Assembly: GCA_903855945.1 (NCBI GenBank)
Contig: CAIOAK010000160.1
Location: 1 to 34,712 of the forward strand
Length of the DNA stretch: 34,712 nt
Source: an uncultured Anaeromyxobacter sp.
GTDB lineage: Bacteria; Myxococcota; Myxococcia; Myxococcales; Anaeromyxobacteraceae
Direction of reading: 5' to 3'
The notes under the pieces are model-generated. The model had not been told where the DNA came from and did no database searches. It worked only from the letters and a program-made list of their open reading frames with translations. Positions 8,382 through 22,601 of the stretch are shown here, piece after piece. The position numbers and the translations under genes were made by a program. Position 1 is the first letter of the stretch. Each line of letters opens with the position of its first letter.

Positions 8382-9680
8382 TCAGGAATTCGATCGCGCC
8401 GCACGGAATCGGCGGCTGCAGTCCTCGGCGGCCGCCGTCACGTCGTCGAGCCGCATGGCCCGCGGCTTCAGCACGGCCTCGCGCTCGTTGAAGCGTCGGT
8501 AGTCGCGGGTCGCCACGTGGGCGCCCCACTCCTTCCACGCCCGCGTGTAGGGGAGCGGAGCGAGGACTGCGAACCGGGCCTCGTCGCTGCTCCACGCGAC
8601 GGCGCGCTCCAGGGTCTCCTCGACGCGCGCGGGAGTTTCGTCCGGGAAGCCCACCCAGAACGAGGTTTCGGAGGTGATTCCCGCCTGCCGGAGCGCCCGG
8701 ACCGCGCGCCTCCCGTCGGCGAGCGACTGCTTCCGGGCCTCCCCAGCGAGCCGGTCCTCGCCAGGCTCGCGGCAGATCCCGACGTGGATGACGCCAGCTT
8801 CTCGCCACGCTGCGAGCCGGGACTCGTCCCGGAGCAGGTCGGGTACGCAGGTCCAGACGATGAACTCGAGTCCCAGGTCGAGTTCGACGACCCGCTCGAG
8901 CAGTGCCGTGAACCGCTCCGGATCGGCGGTAGGCGCCGGGTCCTGAAGCGCGACCACCTCGACGCCGCGCTCGCGGCGCAGGGTGGTGAACTCGTAGGCA
9001 ACCGAGTCCACCGAGCGCTTCCGCCAGACCCCACCGTTCGTGGCCGACTCGAAGCAGTGGGCGCATCGGCGGGGGCAGCCCCGCGAGGTGGCGACGGCGG
9101 CGAGGCGGGCATCCGGCCGCTGCCGGCAACGGTAGCCGGGCGCGTCGAGGATGTCCCAGGCCTTCGGCAGCGGGTCGAGAGCGGCCAGCCGCGGACGGTG
9201 TGCTGTGCGGATCACCCGTCCCCCCAGGGGGAAGGCCAGTCCGGCCACGCGCGCGGGATCGTCCCCGGCCTCGAGGCAACGGAGGAGCTCGGGCAGCGTC
9301 TCCTCCCCCTCCCCCACCACCACGAAGTCTACCTCTCCGCCGGGCAGGAACTCCGGGTACATGGACGACGCGTGGACCCCGCCCACGATGGTGCGGAGGC
9401 CGGGGCGGCGGACCTGCTGGCAGAGTTCCAGTGCGGACGGAAAGCCCGGGGTGGACGAGGAGATGCAGACCGTGTCGGGATCGAACTCGCGCACCCGGCT
9501 CGCGAGGGACGGGACGTCCAGCCCCTCGGCGACGGCATCCACCATTCCGCAGTCGTGCCCGGCGGCTCGCACGGCACCCGCCAGGTGGACCAGGGCAAGG
9601 GGGAGCCAGGCCTGGGCGGTTTCGGCCCCAAGACCCGGCTCCGGCGCGCTCGTCAGAAGGACCCGCACGCGCTCCCCCAT
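8382..9680 (-). CDS. B12-binding-domain radical SAM protein (BchE/P-methyltransferase-like)
   Basis: A 432-residue protein with an N-terminal cobalamin-binding-type Rossmann domain (about 5-140, including TIVGGVHAS and VVGEGEETLPELL) and a radical SAM barrel whose cluster motif is C202xxxC206xxC209 (SRGCPRRCAHC). This domain order is shared by BchE, hopanoid/lipid modifying enzymes and class B methyltransferases. The DxHxxG cobalamin motif is not visible, as is usual for this branch. The substrate cannot be told. ATG 9680 has AGGA about eight bases upstream and a sigma54-type promoter 40-55 bp before the start. It lies between the NarL-type regulator and kinase 1 and may be a target of the NtrC-type regulator downstream. 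Confidence 0.85.
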   Translation of the reverse strand: MGERVRVLLTSAPEPGLGAETAQAWLPLALVHLAGAVRAAGHDCGMVDAVAEGLDVPSLASRVREFDPDTVCISSSTPGFPSALELCQQVRRPGLRTIVGGVHASSMYPEFLPGGEVDFVVVGEGEETLPELLRCLEAGDDPARVAGLAFPLGGRVIRTAHRPRLAALDPLPKAWDILDAPGYRCRQRPDARLAAVATSRGCPRRCAHCFESATNGGVWRKRSVDSVAYEFTTLRRERGVEVVALQDPAPTADPERFTALLERVVELDLGLEFIVWTCVPDLLRDESRLAAWREAGVIHVGICREPGEDRLAGEARKQSLADGRRAVRALRQAGITSETSFWVGFPDETPARVEETLERAVAWSSDEARFAVLAPLPYTRAWKEWGAHVATRDYRRFNEREAVLKPRAMRLDDVTAAAEDCSRRFRAARSNS

Positions 9681-9856: not shown

Positions 9857-10510
9857 TCAGGGGTCGACGCGGATGACGCCCTGGCGAAGCGCGAATCGAA
9901 CGAGCTCGGTCCGATTGTGGAGCCCGAGCTTCTCCATCACCTTCTCGCGGTGGGACATCGCGGTCTTCACGCTGATGCCCAGCACGTCGGCGACCTCCTT
10001 GTTGGCGAGCCCCTCTGCGACGAGCTTCAGCACCTGCTTCTCCCGGTCGGTGAGCGACTCGTACCGATCGCCCCCGCCCTCCGCCGCCGGACCCGAATCC
10101 TCCATCGCCGTGCGCGCCACCTCCGGATCGAGGACCAGCCCCCCGCGATGGACGGCCCGGATCGAGTTCGGCAACTCGGCCCCGGCCGACTTCTTCAGCA
10201 GGTAGCCGGAGACGCCGGCCTTCAGCAGCCGGCGCACGTATTCCCGGTCCTCGTACTGGGAGAGGATCAGGATCTTGGCCCGGAGCCCCGCCTTCTTGAT
10301 CTCGAGGGTGGCCTCCAGGCCACCGAGCCCGGGCATGGCGATGTCCATCACCACGACGTCCGGGTCGAGCTTGCGGGTGGCCTCGATGGCACCCTGGCCG
10401 TCCACCGCCTCCCCGACCACCTCGATGTCCTCGCAGAGCGCGAGCAACGCACGGACTCCCTCGCGGAGGATGGCATGATCGTCGGCGAGCAGAACGCGGA
10501 TCTTCGACAT
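9857..10510 (-). CDS. NarL/LuxR-family response regulator (system 2)
   Basis: A 217-residue two-domain regulator. The receiver domain (about 4-120) has D10, D11, phospho-acceptor D56 and a Lys in the GYLLKKSA segment. A linker precedes the C-terminal LuxR-type helix-turn-helix (about 150-215), with the signature LTDREKQVLKLVAEGLANKEVA. Its ATG lies three bases after the stop of the HisKA_3-type kinase gene, the normal partner class for NarL regulators, so the two almost certainly form a pair. It is last in the run that begins with the nine-haem cytochrome. Unlike the other two regulators here it would work with sigma70-type promoters. Confidence 0.95.
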   Translation of the reverse strand: MSKIRVLLADDHAILREGVRALLALCEDIEVVGEAVDGQGAIEATRKLDPDVVVMDIAMPGLGGLEATLEIKKAGLRAKILILSQYEDREYVRRLLKAGVSGYLLKKSAGAELPNSIRAVHRGGLVLDPEVARTAMEDSGPAAEGGGDRYESLTDREKQVLKLVAEGLANKEVADVLGISVKTAMSHREKVMEKLGLHNRTELVRFALRQGVIRVDP

Positions 10511-10513
10511 CGG

Positions 10514-12364
10514 CTAGCTCTCCCTCGGAAGCGGTACGGCGAGGCGGATGCGCGTCCCCTGACCCGGCGTCGATTCGATGCTCACCTTTCCACCCAGGAT
10601 CTCCACCCGTTCCTCGATCCCCATCAGCCCGAAGTGGCGGCGGTCCGCGTGGGACACGTTGCCCGGATCGAAGCCGCGCCCATCATCCTCGATCTCGATG
10701 CGGATCTCACCCTCGACCTCGGTGAGTTGCACCAGGACGCTCTCCGCGTGGGCGTGGCGCGCGATGTTGCTCATCGCCTCCTGACAGACCCGGAAGAGCG
10801 CCGTCTCGAAGGCCGCCGGATAGCGATGGTCGAGCGCGTCGAACTCGCAGCGCACGGAGATGCCCCGGGTCGCCAGGTGGCGCTCGGCGTACCAGCGGAT
10901 GGCGGACTGGAGCCCCAGGTCGTCGAGGACCGAGGGGCGCAGGTCCAGGATCATCCGGTGGACCTCCTCGATGGTCCGCACGGCGAGGGCCTTCGCCTCC
11001 TCCAGGCGGGGGGTATAGCCCGCCTTGAGCGCGGCCAGCGAACCGTCGATGGCCATGACGAGGGCGGCCAGGCTCTGGCTCGTCTCGTCGTGCAGTTCCC
11101 GGGCGATGCGCTTCCGCTCGTCCTCCTGGGCCGACACCACCTTCTCGTAGAGCCGTCCCAGCGCCAGTTCGCGCTCGCGGAGCTGCTCGTTGGCCTTCCC
11201 GAGCTGTGCGGTCCGCTCGATCACGCGCGCCTCGAGCTGGGCGTTGGCGTCCGCCACCGCACCGAGGAGGCGGGAGAGCGATTCGCGCATCCGCTCCAGG
11301 GCCATCGCGAGCCGCCCCACCTCGTCCTCGCCCAGCGCCGGGATGGGGGCCGAGAGGTCGCCGCCCGCGATGGTCTCGGCGGCACGCGTGAGCGCGACCA
11401 CCGGCCCCGCGATGCTCCGCGCCGCCCCCCAGGCCAGCATCGCCCCGGCGAATACCGACACCAGGATCATGCCCCCGAGCCAGGTCGGGATGGCACCCGA
11501 GGTCCCCATGACCTCGGATGCGGGGACCCGGGCCACGACCGCCCAGGGCGCGTTGGCGACCCAGGCGGTCGTCACCGCCGCGCGCCCCTGGGCGTCCTCG
11601 GAGCGCCCCGCATGGCAATCGCGGCAGAGCTTCGCCGTCCCGGTTCCCTCGGCGACCAGACGACGGACGCCGGTGCACGCGGTCGTGGAGGTGGGCCTCC
11701 CCGGCTCGGTGGTGGCGAGAACCCGCCCGGAGCGGTCGAGCAACTCGGCCGTGCCCTCCGTCCCCTGCCGCAGGTAGCGGAGGAGCACCTGGAAATGGTG
11801 CTGACTCGTGTCCACCACCCCACCCACGACGCCGGTGATGCTGCCGTGCCAGTCCCGCACCGGGACGAGCTGATAGACGTGGTCGCCCGACCGGCCCTCC
11901 ACGAACCCCGTGACCGCCGGACGTCCGGTCTCGATGGCGGTCCGGACCGCCGGAAGCCCGGCGACGGGCGCCATCGACCGGGCGCCTCGGCCCGGTTCCT
12001 CCGCGAGCACCTGCCCCGCTGCGTCGAGGAAGAAGGCGCCGCCGGGGAACTGGAGCCCCACGCGCGGGTCGCGGAGCGCCGCCCGCTCCGGCTCGACGTC
12101 GCGGTCCTCCAGGTTCACGTGGGAGGCGGTGGCGGCGCGCTGGAGCACCTCGAAACCCTGGAGCAGTTCCTCCTCGACCTGGGCGGCCACCGTGCGGGCC
12201 GACCACTCCCGGGCCGCCACGAGCTGCTGGTCGAGCCGAGTGACGCGCACCCCGAAGGCCCAGGCGAGCAGGCCGACCGGGATGACGGCGCTCACGGCGA
12301 GCAGGAGGTAGACGCGGGTCTGCAGCGAGCTGCGCAGACGGTCCCGGAGCGAGGAACCGCTCAT
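10514..12364 (-). CDS. NarX-like (HisKA_3) sensor kinase with cache domain and CxxCH (system 2)
   Basis: A 616-residue membrane kinase. TM1 is at about 18-38 and TM2 at about 293-313, enclosing a large periplasmic double-cache-like domain. The membrane-distal part is preceded by coiled coil, and the membrane-proximal part carries CRDCH at 247-251, a haem-c motif, with an extra Cys at 230. HAMP follows (about 313-366), then a coiled coil (about 370-412), the dimerisation/phospho-acceptor helix with H425 in RKRIARELHDETSQ, and a HATPase domain (NIARHA, DDGRGFD, GLMGI). ATG 12364 overlaps the previous stop (ATGA); longer reading upstream would run into that gene. The partner is the NarL-type regulator immediately downstream. 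The signal is probably redox-linked through the haem, which is inference. Confidence 0.93.
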   Translation of the reverse strand: MSGSSLRDRLRSSLQTRVYLLLAVSAVIPVGLLAWAFGVRVTRLDQQLVAAREWSARTVAAQVEEELLQGFEVLQRAATASHVNLEDRDVEPERAALRDPRVGLQFPGGAFFLDAAGQVLAEEPGRGARSMAPVAGLPAVRTAIETGRPAVTGFVEGRSGDHVYQLVPVRDWHGSITGVVGGVVDTSQHHFQVLLRYLRQGTEGTAELLDRSGRVLATTEPGRPTSTTACTGVRRLVAEGTGTAKLCRDCHAGRSEDAQGRAAVTTAWVANAPWAVVARVPASEVMGTSGAIPTWLGGMILVSVFAGAMLAWGAARSIAGPVVALTRAAETIAGGDLSAPIPALGEDEVGRLAMALERMRESLSRLLGAVADANAQLEARVIERTAQLGKANEQLRERELALGRLYEKVVSAQEDERKRIARELHDETSQSLAALVMAIDGSLAALKAGYTPRLEEAKALAVRTIEEVHRMILDLRPSVLDDLGLQSAIRWYAERHLATRGISVRCEFDALDHRYPAAFETALFRVCQEAMSNIARHAHAESVLVQLTEVEGEIRIEIEDDGRGFDPGNVSHADRRHFGLMGIEERVEILGGKVSIESTPGQGTRIRLAVPLPRES

Positions 12365-12930
12365 CGGGTCTCCCCGTGCGTGCTGCGCGCCATGCGGAGG
12401 AGGTCCTCGAGCGAGCCGCGCCCCCGCAGCAGGAACCGGCGCCCTCCCCGGCTCCAGTCGAGCTGGCTCCAGAGCGTGCCATCCTCCGCCACCACCCGGG
12501 CGAGCACCGCGCCGTCGCCCAGCGGGGCGCTCTGCTGCTGGATGATCGCCAGGCGCCCCTGGAGCCCCTCGGGGATGGCGCGATCGGTCACGGACTCCAC
12601 GAGCAGCAGGGCCGGCGTGCCGTCCTTGCCGAGGAAGTCGAGGGCCACCGCGCCGCCCTCGTCGCGGGTGAAGCGCACGCCGCTCGGCGGCCATCGCAGC
12701 GTATCGGGGAAGTAGGAGGGGAGCAGCACCTTGGTCTGCAGCCGTCGCTCCGCGTCCTCCACCGTGTCCACCCGGCGAACGCCGCGCGGCTGCCCGTGAA
12801 GCCAGGTGGGAACGGAGTCGAGGGTGGCGAGCGCCGCGACCGTGCCCCCCAGGACGAGGGTCATGGTCAACAGCGCACGTGCGCCCTCGCTCACCGTGCT
12901 TCCCATCCCGGCGACCCTCGCGGCGGTCAT
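12361..12930 (-). CDS. Unknown membrane-anchored protein, 189 residues
   Basis: I do not recognise a specific family with confidence. A hydrophobic segment at residues 17-37 is followed by an extracytoplasmic domain of about 150 residues. This domain contains LLPSYFPDTLRWPPSGVRF and alternating beta-strand-like segments, somewhat like anti-sigma-linked or outer-membrane sensor domains that follow a single N-terminal anchor. It is locked between the M56 peptidase gene and kinase 2 by ATGA overlaps at both ends (12927-12930 and 12361-12364). That arrangement strongly suggests a shared task, for example as a substrate of the peptidase or an accessory to the kinase sensor. Both options are inference. 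ATG 12930 was chosen because of the overlap; a second Met nine residues in is possible. Confidence 0.7.
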   Translation of the reverse strand: MTAARVAGMGSTVSEGARALLTMTLVLGGTVAALATLDSVPTWLHGQPRGVRRVDTVEDAERRLQTKVLLPSYFPDTLRWPPSGVRFTRDEGGAVALDFLGKDGTPALLLVESVTDRAIPEGLQGRLAIIQQQSAPLGDGAVLARVVAEDGTLWSQLDWSRGGRRFLLRGRGSLEDLLRMARSTHGETR

Positions 12931-13919
12931 ACCACGAAGAACAGCAGGAGACCGAGGCCGACCGCCGTTGCGGCGAGGCGCATGCGCGCCAGCGGGACCC
13001 GGTGGGGTGGAGGGGCGAGCAGCGCCCGGCAGCGCAGCTCGATGTCGTGGGACCGGGCCCGCGCGATGGGCTCGGCGAGCGCCGCGGCGAGGGGGTGGCT
13101 TCCGGGTGCGCTGGCCGGCCCCCGCCCCTCGGTGGCGCGGAAGAGCTTCAGGAGCCCGCTCGCGAGCGCCAGCCGGTCCCCGCTCGCGTTCCCCGCCCGC
13201 TCGTCGGCGACGCGCTCCCCGTCCCGGGCGATGGCCCGCACGAGCACCTGCACGCCCGGGTTGAACCACATGAGGGCGCGAGCGCCCATGAGCGCCCAGG
13301 ACAGCGTGGGGTCGCGACGTTCCAGGTGCGCGAGTTCATGGGCGAGCGCGCCGGCCAGTTCCTCGGAGTCGAGGAGGGCCACGGCCGACCGGGAGATGAC
13401 CACGGTGGGTCGCCGGGTTCCGGTGCAGAAGAGGACGGGCGGGCCTTCATCCACCCAGGCGAGCGGGGGAGCCTCCATCCGGAGCGCGGCGGCCGCCCGC
13501 GCGAGTGCCTCCTGGGCCGGGCGCGCGTGGGGAGACCGGGCCAGCCACGGAGGCGAGCGGGCGCCGCGTGCGCGCATCCACGGGACGAGGTCGAGCAGGA
13601 AGAGCCCGAGTCCGAAGGCGGACATCCCGAGGATCCACCAGCCGTAGAGGCCGATCCCCAGGAAGGCGAGGTCCTCCCAGTGACGCCCGGCGAAGAGCGC
13701 ACGGCCGTCGCGGAACGACTCCTCCTCCCGCCCCGGGAAGAGGAGGAAGTACGCGGGCACGACGAGCAGCGGCCAGACGAGCGCCAGCAGGCGGAACCCG
13801 GTGCGCTGCTGGGGGTCGCGCACCTTCCAGAGCCGCACGAGCGCCTCGACGACGAGCGCGGCGACCAGGGTGTGGAAGATCGCCTGCCCGGCGAAGTCCA
13901 TCCACCTGGCGCCGCTCAT
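12927..13919 (-). CDS. M56-family (BlaR1/MecR1-like) membrane metallopeptidase
   Basis: A 330-residue multi-pass protein with hydrophobic segments at about 10-30, 42-61 and 84-113, and one at the extreme C terminus. The zinc motif HELAH is at residues 194-198, followed by the downstream acidic ligand region GERVADERAG (about 234-243), as in M48/M56 peptidases. BlaR1-type proteins have an extracellular penicillin-binding sensor; none is present here, so the signal-sensing part must be elsewhere or intrinsic. It overlaps the unknown 189-residue gene by four bases and lies 21 bp after the cytochrome b gene. A role in regulated proteolysis connected with kinase 2 is suggested by position only. 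Confidence 0.88.
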   Translation of the reverse strand: MSGARWMDFAGQAIFHTLVAALVVEALVRLWKVRDPQQRTGFRLLALVWPLLVVPAYFLLFPGREEESFRDGRALFAGRHWEDLAFLGIGLYGWWILGMSAFGLGLFLLDLVPWMRARGARSPPWLARSPHARPAQEALARAAAALRMEAPPLAWVDEGPPVLFCTGTRRPTVVISRSAVALLDSEELAGALAHELAHLERRDPTLSWALMGARALMWFNPGVQVLVRAIARDGERVADERAGNASGDRLALASGLLKLFRATEGRGPASAPGSHPLAAALAEPIARARSHDIELRCRALLAPPPHRVPLARMRLAATAVGLGLLLFFVV

Positions 13920-13940
13920 ACGGCGTCCTCGGCCCCGGGC

Positions 13941-14654
13941 TCAGTGCCCGTGACCGCCGGGCTCCCGTCCCTCGATGCGGGCCAGCTCGAGCGGGTGCTC
14001 GTGCTCCATGCGCTCGCGGCTGATCTGCCCCGTGAAGATCGACGCGTCGAACGGGAACACGTCGGGGTGCAGGTGCGCGTTGAAGATGTGCCAGATGGTG
14101 ATGACGAGGAAGGCCATGAGCCCCTCGTTCGAATGGGCCACCTTGGCCGCCGGGATGATCTCCCCCGGGCCGAGTCGCGCCACGAAGGCCGGGTACATGA
14201 GGGTGAGGCCGGAGAGGATCATGATCACGTTGCCGATCATGAGGCTCCAGTACTCCCACTTCTGCTTGTAGTCGTACCGGTCGAAGGCGGCGGGGTGATC
14301 CTCGAGCCCCAGGTAGTAGCGGAGCGTCTGCACGGCGTCGTTGAAGTCGCGCTTGTTCACCGCCATCGTGAATCCGACCTTGCGGGACAGGATGGCGCGG
14401 AAGGCGGTGGCGAGGTGGACCACCACCGCCACGAGCAGCACGATGCCGAAGAAGCGGTGGATCCAGCGGACCGTGTCGATCCCGCCCAGGTTGCCGATGA
14501 GCCACTGCGCCCACCGGGCCGTGTAGAACTTCTGGGGCAGGCCGGTGGCGACCAGGCCGACGAAGTCGACCATGGTCACGAAGTGCTCCACCCGCTGCGC
14601 CGGACCGAAGCGCAAGAGGTACGACGTCCCCACCCCGTTCGACCCTTCGCTCAT
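13941..14654 (-). CDS. Di-haem cytochrome b (FdnI/HydC-like quinone-interacting subunit)
   Basis: A 237-residue integral membrane protein with four likely helices at about 25-41, 66-88, 135-158 and 175-195. Histidines placed for two b haems include H24, H66, H80, H174 and H189. The segment YKQKWEYWSLMIGNVIMILSG is typical of the cytochrome b subunits of formate dehydrogenase and hydrogenase complexes. ATG 14654 has no strong ribosome-binding site but gives the expected N terminus. It follows the nine-haem cytochrome gene by 47 bp, so the pair probably forms one quinone-to-periplasm (or reverse) electron-transfer unit, comparable in composition with the Cbc complexes of Geobacter. The His-rich C-terminal tail (residues 217-237) is unusual. 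Confidence 0.88.
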   Translation of the reverse strand: MSEGSNGVGTSYLLRFGPAQRVEHFVTMVDFVGLVATGLPQKFYTARWAQWLIGNLGGIDTVRWIHRFFGIVLLVAVVVHLATAFRAILSRKVGFTMAVNKRDFNDAVQTLRYYLGLEDHPAAFDRYDYKQKWEYWSLMIGNVIMILSGLTLMYPAFVARLGPGEIIPAAKVAHSNEGLMAFLVITIWHIFNAHLHPDVFPFDASIFTGQISRERMEHEHPLELARIEGREPGGHGH

Positions 14655-14701
14655 CGCCGCGCTCCTCGCTCCGGAATCCGTGCCGCCCGCCGCACCGCCG
14701 C

Positions 14702-15745
14702 TCACCGGTTCACCACGACCCGCCAGAGGTGGAGCGCGATCTGCACCAACAGGCTGACGAGGATGAAGGGGATGAGCACGTAGTAGAAGAGCTGCACGGT
14801 CCAGACGAGCGGGGACTTCTTCAGGCTGGGCTCGTAGTGGGACATCCAGGCCTTGGGGAAGTCGGCGGTGGCGCCGGCGTGGCACTTGCCGCAGGTCTTC
14901 ACGAGGTTGGACTTCATCACAGAGGAGCGGGGGTCCGACGGCTTCTGGATGTCGTGCACGCCGTGGCAGTCGGTGCAGCCGGCCGCGAGCCTGTCCGACT
15001 TTCCCTTCTTGCCCTTCTGCAGGGAGGCCGCCATGCCGTGGAAGTCGGACAGGTAGCTCGAGACCACGTTGGTGGAGAGGCCGTAGCGCTTCATCAGCTT
15101 GGGGTCGGTGTGGCAGCGGCCGCAGATGTCGGCGGTGCGCAGGGACAGCGCGCCAGCGCGCGGGTCGGCGACGTCGTGGGCGTGGTGGCAGTCGGTGCAG
15201 ACCGGGACGTCGCCGTTGCCCTGGGTCACCGCCTTGCCGTGGACGCTCTCCTTGTAGACGTCGAAGACCTGCTTGTGGCAGTTGGAGCAGGTCTGGGAGA
15301 CCCGGGTGCGGGGCTCGGCGGGGCGACCGATGGCGTGGGAACCGTGGCAATCGACGCAGAGGGCGGCCTGCTGGTTCCCCTTCTGCGCCAGCTGGAAGTG
15401 AACCCCGTCGAGGGTCTTCGTGTAGTTGGCGAAGTGGCACTTCTTGCACTGCTCGTAATAGGCGACCGTGACGTCCCGGCGGGTCTTGAAGGGCTTCGAA
15501 TCGTGGGGGTAGTCGGTCTTGTCGGTGTGGCAGTCGGTGCAGCGGAGCATGTCGCCGTGGACCGACTTGCCGAAGGCCGCCTGGTCCACGTGGAGCGGGA
15601 GCTTCTCGCCACCGGGGAGGTCCATGGACATGGACGGGTCGCTCCCGTGGCAGCCCAGGCAACTGTCCTGCTCCGCCGGGATCTCCGCCCACGCCGGCGC
15701 GGCCAGGAAGGCCACCGCCAGTGCAAGCAACATCCGCTTCGACAT
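14702..15745 (-). CDS. Membrane-anchored nine-haem c-type cytochrome
   Basis: A 347-residue secreted protein: Sec signal peptide 1-20 ending AWA, then nine CxxCH motifs with their first Cys at residues 29, 69, 100, 130, 153, 183, 208, 257 and 285, and a C-terminal membrane helix at about 312-340. Additional histidines between motifs (for example SVHG, GSHAIG, HHAHD, GVHD) can act as distal ligands for bis-His haems. The architecture is that of periplasmic electron conduits tethered to the inner membrane. Together with the cytochrome b gene downstream it suggests a quinol:cytochrome oxidoreductase. ATG 15745 is preceded by GAGGGGCG. No sigma54-type promoter is evident upstream, but a perfect 19-bp palindrome lies about 120 bp away. 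Confidence 0.95.
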   Translation of the reverse strand: MSKRMLLALAVAFLAAPAWAEIPAEQDSCLGCHGSDPSMSMDLPGGEKLPLHVDQAAFGKSVHGDMLRCTDCHTDKTDYPHDSKPFKTRRDVTVAYYEQCKKCHFANYTKTLDGVHFQLAQKGNQQAALCVDCHGSHAIGRPAEPRTRVSQTCSNCHKQVFDVYKESVHGKAVTQGNGDVPVCTDCHHAHDVADPRAGALSLRTADICGRCHTDPKLMKRYGLSTNVVSSYLSDFHGMAASLQKGKKGKSDRLAAGCTDCHGVHDIQKPSDPRSSVMKSNLVKTCGKCHAGATADFPKAWMSHYEPSLKKSPLVWTVQLFYYVLIPFILVSLLVQIALHLWRVVVNR

Positions 15746-16009
15746 GGTCGCCCCTCGTCTCGATCGGAGGGCCGCCGACGTTGACTGGCGGTCCTCGTGA
15801 TTAACCCGTCGGCTGTAGCAGATCCCTCGGGGTCTGGCCAGAGGAACGCGGATTAACTTCCATGAATTTCCCCGGGAAATTCGACGGCGATCGTGGACTC
15901 GAGCGGTCGATTTGGGCGACTTCGCCCACTACGCAGCTTGCGCGCGCTCCGCCCATGGTGAGGGCCGAGCACGCGCAAGGTTTTCGCTCCCGGGTGCGCC
16001 CGGGAAGAC
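15746..16009. other. Intergenic region between the trihaem and nine-haem cytochrome genes
   Basis: These 264 bp hold no convincing gene. Contents: stem TCCCGGG/CCCGGGA with 4-nt loop (15988-16005) just after the trihaem stop, without a T-run; an 8-bp inverted repeat CTTGCGCG (15937-15944) with CGCGCAAG (15972-15979); a GGGCG/CGCCC hairpin (15914-15927); the palindrome at 15864-15882; and GATTAAC twice (15799 and 15851). The structured half may slow or end transcription from the upstream operon, and the other half probably holds the promoter of the nine-haem operon. Confidence 0.5.
15864..15882. promoter_or_regulatory. Perfect 19-bp palindrome, candidate operator
   Basis: GAATTTCCCcGGGAAATTC has perfect 9-bp arms around one central base. 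It is markedly AT-richer than its surroundings and lies about 120 bp upstream of the nine-haem cytochrome start. The protein that binds it is unknown; the NarL-type regulator encoded in the same run is one candidate, although the sequence is not a typical NarL heptamer pair. Confidence 0.45.
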
Positions 16010-20347: not shown

Positions 20348-20351
<4 letters not shown>

Positions 20352-20881
20352 CTCGCCTCCCCACCGCTGCGCATCACGCGTCCGCGGCACGTCGTGCAGA
20401 ACTCGCCCCGCTTCTTGTCCACGTCCCTCGCGCCGGACGAGCGCCCCATGACACATCCCGGGCGGTCGCAGTGGACCAGCCCGAAGCAGTGGCCGAGCTC
20501 GTGGACGGACTCCTTGGCCAGCCGCTCCAGCGCCACGCGCGGGTCGGGGAGACCCGGCTCGCCGAGCCGTGCGCTGGAGACCACGGCCGCCCGCCCGCCC
20601 AGTTGCGCCTCGCCGAAGACGAAGGTGAGGATGGGGATGAAGAGGTCCTGGTCGGTCACCGCGAGCACCAGACCCGGCGGCCCGGACTGGACGAGCCACG
20701 CCAGGATCCGCGATGTGGACCACTGCTTGCGCCGGGCGTCGTAGGCGTCCGGGGGGCGGGCCGGGTCGTCCCAGACGGCCACGGGGAGGCCGATGGCTCG
20801 CCCCAGGTGGAGCTGGAGGTGCTCGAGGGTCCGGGGCCCGGGGTCCTTCTCGCCGATCCACCACAGGTGTATGGCCTCCAC
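20348..20881 (-). CDS. amzA: Archaemetzincin (M54 metallopeptidase)
   Basis: A 177-residue cytoplasmic protein. The active-site motif HExxHxxGxxHC is complete: H127 E128 L G H131 C F G L V H137 C138. A second, structural zinc site C138-x4-C143-x18-C162-x2-C165 includes the Met two residues after C143 that is part of the archaemetzincin signature. The start codon is GTG at 20881, one base after the kinase stop, and the stop overlaps the regulator start (ATGA). Archaemetzincins are aminopeptidase-like in the few tested cases, and their biological role is poorly known. Here its insertion between a haem-motif kinase and its regulator suggests a function in that signalling pathway, for example turnover of a component. 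Confidence 0.9.
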
Positions 20882-20882
20882 G

Positions 20883-22601
20883 TCACGATCCGTGCGAGGC
20901 GGGGACGCGGATGGTGAACCGGGTCCCCTTCCCCGGCTCGCTCTCCACCGTCACCTTCCCCTTGTGCCGCTCGACGATCCCGTAGACCACCGAGAGGCCG
21001 AGTCCGGTGCCCTTCTCCTTCGTGGTGAAGAAGGGGTCGAAGATCTTCAGCATCAGCTCCTTCGGGATGCCCGGGCCGTCGTCCTGGAAGACCATCTCCA
21101 CGGCGTCGTCCTCCGGGAGCGGCCGGGTGGTGATGCGCAGCCGCCCTCCCTTGCCCATGGCCTCGACGGCGTTCATGACGATGTTGACGAAGGCCTGCCG
21201 GAGCTGGCCGAAGTCGCCCAGGACCAGCGGAACCCGGGCCAGATCCTTCTCCACCACCACGCCCACCATGGCGATCTGGTTCGCCACGAGCTGCAGGACC
21301 TCGTCGAGGACGTGGTTCACGTCTACGGGCTTCAGCGCCAGCGGCCGCTCCCGGGCGAAGTCGAGCAGGTTGCGCACGATGGCCGTGCAGCGCTCCGTCT
21401 CCCGCTGCACGAGCGCCAGCTGCTTCACGAGGGTGCGCCGCTCCACCTCGCCGACCGGCCCGTGCTCGATGGTCCGGATCATGAGCTTCGCGAAGGTGAG
21501 GATCCCGGCCAGCGGATTGTTGATCTCGTGGGCGATGGAGGCCGAGAGCTTGCCGAGCGAGGAGAGCTTCTCGGTGCGGACGAGCGTGTCCTGGGCTGCC
21601 CGCAGCTCGCTGGTGCGCTCCTCGACCTTGTGCTCCAGCTGCTCGTTCAGCGCCTCCAGCTCCCCCTCGACCCGTGCGAGCGACCGGGTCATCTCGTTGA
21701 AGGAGGCCGCCAGCAGCCCGAGCTCGCCGCGGAAGTCCACGTGCAGCTCGGTGCCGAGATCGTCGTGGGCCACCCGCCGCGTGGCCTGCACGAGCGCCTC
21801 CACCGGGCGCACCACCCGGTGGGAGGCCACCCACCAGAACACCGAACCGAGCAGGAGGGCGAGGAGGGCCGTGACGAGGAGGCTGACCCGGCGGAAGGTG
21901 AGCAGATCGTGGTCGACGGAGGCGAGCGACACGCCCGTGTCGAGGACCCCCAGGACCTGGGCGGTTCGCGGGTGGGCGTGGCAGGCGGCGGTGGTGCAGT
22001 CGGGGCTCGACCGGATGGGGGTGACGATGGAGAGGACGCGACCCTGCTGCCCCTCGTAGACCCGCGCCCGGAGCGCGTCGATGGGGACGGTGAGGTTCTC
22101 GTTCTCCCCGTGGCAGGCGTTGCATCCCTCGGCCCGCTTGTCGACGAGCTGGCCGCGCTCGCCCCCCACCGTGGAGAAGGTGATCCGCCCCTCCTTGTTG
22201 ATGATCCGGACGTGCGCGATCTGCCCCTGGCGGCCGACGTTGTCGATGATGGAGTAGGCGTCGCTCCGCTCGTCCTTCAGCATGGCGTGCCGGATCGACG
22301 CGGCCACGGTCTCCGAGACGAGTGCGGTGGCCGCCGTCGCGCTGGCGATCCGCTGCCTCGAGATGGTCGTCTCCACCACGGCGAAGGCGACGATCGAGGC
22401 CACCACGAGCGCCGCCACCACGCCGAGGAGCTGGGTGGAGATCCGATCGCGCCAGGGGATGGAGTCGAGCGCCGAGCGATCGTGGCCGTGGCCCGACGCG
22501 CCACCGGGTTTCGACCCGCTCGTCCTTCCCGCTTCCTGCAACCGTGCCTCCCGGCAATCGCGATCCGCCACGAGCCTACTCCCCTCGCGGGAAACGTCCA
22601 T
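20883..22601 (-). CDS. Sensor histidine kinase with two haem-c motifs (system 3)
   Basis: A 572-residue membrane kinase with TM1 at about 57-78 and TM2 at about 238-260. The periplasmic domain between them contains CNACH at 160-164 and a second, wider motif C202-TTAA-CH at 207-208 (Cx4CH), so it may bind two c-type haems. HAMP follows (about 260-312), then a coiled coil (about 305-342), HisKA with H358 in SASIAHEINNPLAG, and HATPase (NAVEAMG, DDGPGIP, GTGLGLSV). The first 50 residues are polar and poorly conserved-looking, so a start later than ATG 22601 is possible. It begins an operon with archaemetzincin and the NtrC-type regulator and diverges from purU. Confidence 0.92.
   Translation of the reverse strand: MDVSREGSRLVADRDCREARLQEAGRTSGSKPGGASGHGHDRSALDSIPWRDRISTQLLGVVAALVVASIVAFAVVETTISRQRIASATAATALVSETVAASIRHAMLKDERSDAYSIIDNVGRQGQIAHVRIINKEGRITFSTVGGERGQLVDKRAEGCNACHGENENLTVPIDALRARVYEGQQGRVLSIVTPIRSSPDCTTAACHAHPRTAQVLGVLDTGVSLASVDHDLLTFRRVSLLVTALLALLLGSVFWWVASHRVVRPVEALVQATRRVAHDDLGTELHVDFRGELGLLAASFNEMTRSLARVEGELEALNEQLEHKVEERTSELRAAQDTLVRTEKLSSLGKLSASIAHEINNPLAGILTFAKLMIRTIEHGPVGEVERRTLVKQLALVQRETERCTAIVRNLLDFARERPLALKPVDVNHVLDEVLQLVANQIAMVGVVVEKDLARVPLVLGDFGQLRQAFVNIVMNAVEAMGKGGRLRITTRPLPEDDAVEMVFQDDGPGIPKELMLKIFDPFFTTKEKGTGLGLSVVYGIVERHKGKVTVESEPGKGTRFTIRVPASHGS

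Follow-up and report, generated by a model that had tools for sequence, protein, structure and literature searches.

A conserved six-gene set of Anaeromyxobacteraceae places an M56 peptidase and a candidate partner protein beside a split CbcL-like cytochrome pair and a putative haem-bearing sensor kinase

Introduction

The Anaeromyxobacter family includes soil bacteria that respire iron, and in metal-respiring bacteria CbcL-type oxidases set the potential at which electrons are exported. How that potential is sensed is, to our knowledge, an open question in Geobacter and Anaeromyxobacter. Here we describe six genes in a stretch of 34,712 nucleotides (“the window”) that is part of an Anaeromyxobacteraceae genome (uncultured Anaeromyxobacter sp., contig CAIOAK010000160.1). 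They encode a nine-haem c-type cytochrome (cytC9), a b-type cytochrome (cytB), a membrane peptidase (M56), an anchored protein of 189 residues (P189), a sensor histidine kinase (HK) and a response regulator (RR).

Few roles of M56 peptidases outside beta-lactam resistance are known to us, and our literature search found no relevant paper on M56 peptidases together with kinases and cytochromes. CbcL itself, which works in Fe(III) respiration at low potential, combines a c-type part holding nine haems with a b-type membrane domain holding two (PMC6295460, PMC9129911). A 2026 paper attributed the properties of nitric oxide (NO) sensors to single Cache domains that bear haem and are fused to signalling modules (PMC12889525), and the C-terminal domain of RseB/MucB is the primary anti-sigma-binding surface of that protein (PMC7400510).

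Sequence comparison gives good support to the view that the six genes belong together as three conserved pairs, whose catalytic and haem motifs are intact. We give an even chance to the further reading that the run encodes a CbcL-type quinol oxidase as a cassette under its own regulation, in which M56 and P189 would act as a split BlaR1-like module between cytochrome and kinase.

Results

Layout of the six-gene run

All six genes lie on the minus strand in the order cytC9-cytB-M56-P189-HK-RR (window 9857-15745):

14702..15745 (-), cytC9, nine-haem c-type cytochrome with nine CxxCH motifs (Pfam Paired_CXXCH_1, Cytochrome_C7)
13941..14654 (-), cytB, b-type cytochrome (Pfam Ni_hydr_CYTB, E 3.7e-12)
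12927..13919 (-), M56, membrane zinc peptidase (Pfam Peptidase_M56, E 8.3e-15)
12361..12930 (-), P189, single-pass anchored protein of 189 residues (AlphaFold2 model, fold comparison)
10514..12364 (-), HK, sensor histidine kinase with the architecture dCache-HAMP-HisKA_3-HATPase_c (Pfam)
9857..10510 (-), RR, NarL/FixJ-type response regulator (Pfam Response_reg, the receiver, and GerE, a LuxR-type helix-turn-helix)

The gene positions, the Pfam matches and the nine CxxCH motifs of cytC9 agree with the original prediction, made from the sequence of the window, as to the types and places of the six genes. It had also counted ATGA overlaps at three junctions. Two of these are certain, each of 4 nt (M56/P189 and P189/HK); the third may be a GTGA overlap between cytC9 and cytB, which are 47 nt apart if cytB begins at its ATG and overlap if it begins at the GTG at 14705. 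The remaining gaps are 21 nt (cytB/M56) and, in the window, 3 nt (HK/RR). Elsewhere in the family a 4-nt overlap occurs at the cytochrome junction in many genomes and at the kinase-regulator junction in most. Neither sigma-70 consensus promoters nor terminators were found above chance inside the run.

Conservation and distribution of the gene set

The search for P189 covered 23 other genomes of the genus and family and was positive in 21. The two genomes without it are G002, in which the contig stops just past M56, and G012, which lacks the whole set and carries a fused CbcL-like gene instead. At every family locus the order cytC9-cytB-M56-P189-HK-RR is uninterrupted as far as the contigs extend. 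The motifs are equally well kept: all 17 family cytC9 sequences have nine haem motifs, HExxH is intact in all 19 family M56 proteins, and 21 of 22 family kinases retain CxxCH. Because the order is the same family-wide and the M56 HExxH and the kinase CxxCH are kept, the run is more than a chance succession. A contig scan with the M56 protein as query matched only three close relatives.

To follow the set beyond the family, a P189 profile was searched against 195 Myxococcota genomes. Twenty-five were positive, three of them outside the family (G125, G030 and G163), and in all 25, as far as the contigs reach, P189 occurs only where the cytochrome pair and the kinase-regulator pair are neighbours. 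G125 retains the same six-gene order. Its assembly is listed at 7% contamination; since its set is only about 39-66% identical to the window's sequences, it is not the DNA of a close relative. In G030 and G163 the same three pairs adjoin one another in a different orientation: M56-P189 diverges from the cytochrome pair on one side and converges with the kinase-regulator pair on the other, where the regulator gene is its neighbour. M56 and P189 again overlap by ATGA in these genomes. As the adjacency has outlived rearrangement, this linkage is stronger evidence than synteny within the family. The original prediction had named replacement of the M56 neighbour by unrelated genes in relatives as an observation that would count against it; M56-P189 stays with the set throughout the family and in the three genomes outside it.

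M56 peptidases as such are common, being present in 136 of the 195 genomes, and P189 and its pairing with M56 are therefore the specific part. The P189 profile gave no match beside eight other M56 genes of the phylum, so that further pairs or fusions as proof of a split receptor were not obtained. Because M56-P189 is found only where both other pairs occur together, it probably links them.

It could be argued that M56 and P189 are inherited passengers of an old operon, with no functional tie to their neighbours, and the order within the family, taken alone, could indeed reflect operon inertia. However, the pairs are re-oriented yet still adjacent in G030 and G163, the same order recurs in G125, and the catalytic residues are invariant although M56 identity to the window protein is only 46-82% among family relatives. 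These observations disfavour the explanation, and we consider it very improbable.

The cytochrome pair

cytC9 has a signal peptide and one C-terminal transmembrane helix. On sequence grounds, cytC9 and cytB are the c-type and membrane halves of a two-gene CbcL-like inner-membrane quinol oxidase: the cytC9 profile and the cytB profile both match the one fused CbcL-like open reading frame of G012. In the window and in all relatives of the set the halves are two separate genes, whereas the CbcL/MtrH/MtoC family is defined by a single polypeptide.

Two further genes were seen near split cytochromes. A family of small membrane proteins with two helices (L049:8797-9345 (+), L077:7010-7432 (-), L109:3012-3314 (-), L032:13392-14366 (-)) has its genes before or after the split cytochromes in genomes outside the family; in other genera of the family two copies are convergent with the regulator, and the window has no copy. 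By eye, a membrane-anchored protein resembling glycine-cleavage H protein lies between a small cytochrome (cytC3) and cytC9 in L031, L032 and L033; it is missing in the window and present in other genera.

The M56 peptidase

The active site of M56 reads HELAH (residues 194-198), and H194, E195, H198 and E235 are invariant among its relatives; E235 is probably the third zinc ligand. The protein has four hydrophobic helices and ends with the fourth, with no sensor domain beyond. Hydropathy and charge predict a cytosolic active site and a C-terminus outside the membrane, which is a BlaR1-like topology.

M56 also matches Peptidase_M48 above the cut-off, more weakly than Peptidase_M56, and its only match by sequence in the PDB is an HtpX homologue. 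These matches speak for a role in quality control, in which an HtpX-like M56 would remove unassembled cytochrome b or haem-less cytochrome c, with P189 as its outside adaptor and a kinase that merely shares the operon. The divergence of M56-P189 from the cytochrome operon in G030 and G163 is compatible with this, as the control region between them could be common. On the other hand, G044 has split cytochromes without the kinase and also without M56-P189, although this is one short contig of 4.7 kb and not decisive, and the fused CbcL-like gene of G012 stands without M56-P189, which is not decisive either since fused proteins may need less control. We think quality control an unlikely explanation of the pair.

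The original prediction had offered M56-P189 as either a second input layer to the kinase or a quality-control arm for the cytochromes. The distribution makes the latter less favoured than a layer between cytochrome and kinase, because the kinase-less split cytochromes of G044 lack M56-P189 and because P189 occurs only where both other pairs are neighbours; this preference draws on one counter-lineage (G044) and one phylum. As for the input layer, the linkage is confirmed, and distributional evidence favours a coupling role.

The anchored protein P189

In the AlphaFold2 model (pLDDT 84 overall, about 94 in the domain), P189 has a short cytosolic tail, one N-terminal helix and an extracytoplasmic beta-sheet domain at about residues 50-185. 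The best structural match of this domain is RseB residues 220-316 (Z 10.4, VIA-align). The top six entries are all RseB/MucB C-terminal domains, with Z from 10.4 to 8.7, and the next group stands at 7.5. DUF4245 (Pfam PF14030) was tried as a family for P189 and rejected, with 20.6 bits against a gathering threshold of 30.1 and weak matches in 6 of 23 members.

Since the RseB-like fold is an envelope-stress fold, and M56 combines BlaR1-like topology and active site with a detached outside domain, the pair might instead be a split receptor of BlaR1 type that senses envelope damage and acts on its own cytosolic repressor or sigma-type target elsewhere, its neighbourhood reflecting co-regulation only. 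We regard this as improbable. The BlaI/MecI partner repressor family (PF03965) was found in none of four genus genomes while control genomes were positive, and a general stress receptor would not be expected to keep so tightly and exclusively to a single respiratory cassette.

The kinase and regulator

The CxxCH motif of HK is CRDCH (residues 247-251), located in the membrane-proximal subdomain of a double Cache; the model of the sensor has the dCache fold (Z 19). HK is thus a putative haem-bearing dCache HisKA_3 kinase. DUF3365/Tll0287 (sCache_heme) was not among its Pfam matches with E up to 0.1.

In G138 (L133:2303-6514 (-)) a multihaem cytochrome of another kind is followed by a related CxxCH kinase with its regulator, and a further CxxCH kinase is divergent from this cytochrome; such a neighbourhood indicates that haem kinases beside cytochromes recur in the phylum. 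Downstream of RR lies a B12-binding radical SAM protein (window 8382-9680 (-)). G192 encodes a protein 40% identical to it (L132:4961-6469 (+)), whose gene converges with the related kinase-regulator pair there.

The parallel that the original prediction drew with its system 3, where another metallopeptidase accompanies a haem kinase, is borne out by an M54 peptidase gene (20348-20881 (-)) that adjoins a second CxxCH kinase gene (20883-22601 (-)). This archaemetzincin-type peptidase, with the motif HELGHCFGLVH, lies between the CNACH kinase and an NtrC-type regulator, and its position is kept in those family loci that reach it.

The control region upstream of cytC9

Two candidate control elements were located:

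15812..15841 (-), putative promoter of the run (CTGGCC, 18 nt, TACAGC), found by comparing relatives
15865..15881, perfect palindrome AATTTCCCCGGGAAATT, about 68 bp before the point where transcription is expected to start, candidate operator

An element of the form TTGGAC (or CTGGCC/G)-18/19-TA occurs upstream of cytC9 in 14 of 18 relatives, compared to a mean of 0.8 and a maximum of 4 in shuffled sequences; this enrichment is optimistic because the pattern was picked after inspection. Even when up to 2 mismatches are allowed, the genome (4.07 Mb) holds no second copy of the palindrome, and 0.02 copies would be expected by chance in the window with up to 3 mismatches. Three other genomes of the genus carry it at the corresponding position with a few changes; before cytC9 in other genera it was not found.

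Discussion

Returning to the reading of the run as an autoregulated cassette with a split protease module, we propose the following scheme. The haem-bearing Cache domain would inform the kinase of conditions outside the membrane, namely redox state, NO or another small ligand, and the regulator would act at the palindrome and promoter before cytC9, driving its own operon. With less certainty, M56 and P189 would work as a BlaR1 receptor split in two, P189 supplying the outside domain on its own helix. Its RseB-like domain might dock on a partner outside the membrane, either the Cache domain of the kinase or the nine-haem cytochrome, and docking would gate M56. The peptidase would then cut some pathway component in the membrane or the cytosol, for which the kinase or P189 itself is the most economical choice, and this cleavage would match the output of the kinase to the condition of the cytochrome. 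That a split BlaR1-like receptor controls the haem-sensing two-component system, and hence the respiratory quinol oxidase, by proteolysis is a tentative proposal that we regard as possible and somewhat doubtful.

Several observations weigh against this scheme. G192 and G138 carry kinase-regulator pairs of this kind that lack M56-P189, and all distribution data come from a single phylum. Two kinases of otherwise complete clusters, in L044 and L076/G125, have lost CxxCH (ECPSPPG, CRSCG); haem is therefore not indispensable for the set, and these kinases suggest that a sensor lacking covalent haem can still function. Sequence comparison does not place P189 in the RseB family (hhalign probability 0.6%), and Pfam MucB_RseB_C gave no match among 23 P189 members and none at P189 in relatives, so the likeness to RseB is one of fold only. 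The fold in turn is one of a broad group of PsbP/Mog1-like type (Z near 7); in view of this and of the missing sequence kinship, a protein-docking role is no more than suggested. Finally, cleavage, substrate, interaction and direction of signalling in the M56-P189 pair are steps that we infer.

If the scheme is true, a NarX/NarL-type pathway includes regulated membrane proteolysis, and an M56 peptidase with its sensor partner detached would be a new arrangement. One conserved unit joins the oxidase, a putative haem-bearing sensor kinase, the protease module and a candidate operator, which makes the question of potential sensing testable by single-gene deletions. Each part is of a known type; what is new is their combination, in which a protease pair sits within a haem-kinase/CbcL cassette.

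The locus shares features with five described systems. With NarX/NarL-type systems that have haem Cache sensors it has in common HAMP, HisKA_3, a NarL-type output and a CxxCH within a Cache fold; in contrast to sCache_heme (DUF3365), the Cache of HK is double and carries the motif in its membrane-proximal half. The outside domain of P189 shares the fold of the RseB/MucB C-terminal domain, whereas P189 is membrane-anchored, too short for both domains and without the N-terminal lipid-binding half-barrel; the run contains no sigma or anti-sigma gene, and its protease is M56 instead of DegS/AlgW. HtpX (M48) and M56 share a membrane zinc peptidase domain, as the weaker but significant Pfam match indicates, yet the Peptidase_M56 match is the better one, and the protein is coupled to P189. 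BlaR1 and MecR1 offer a further comparison: an M56 domain with HExxH and a downstream Glu, four helices, a C-terminus outside and a partner domain outside the membrane recur here, but the C-terminal penicillin-binding sensor domain is absent from the window's M56, and a protein of another fold, anchored on its own, provides the outside domain. The cytochrome pair, lastly, resembles CbcL of Geobacter sulfurreducens (CbcL/MtrH/MtoC) in its nine c-type haem motifs and its HydC/FdnI-like b-type membrane part. CbcL is an inner-membrane quinol oxidase made as one polypeptide; here two genes encode the halves, and a protease pair and a haem kinase are built into the same run.

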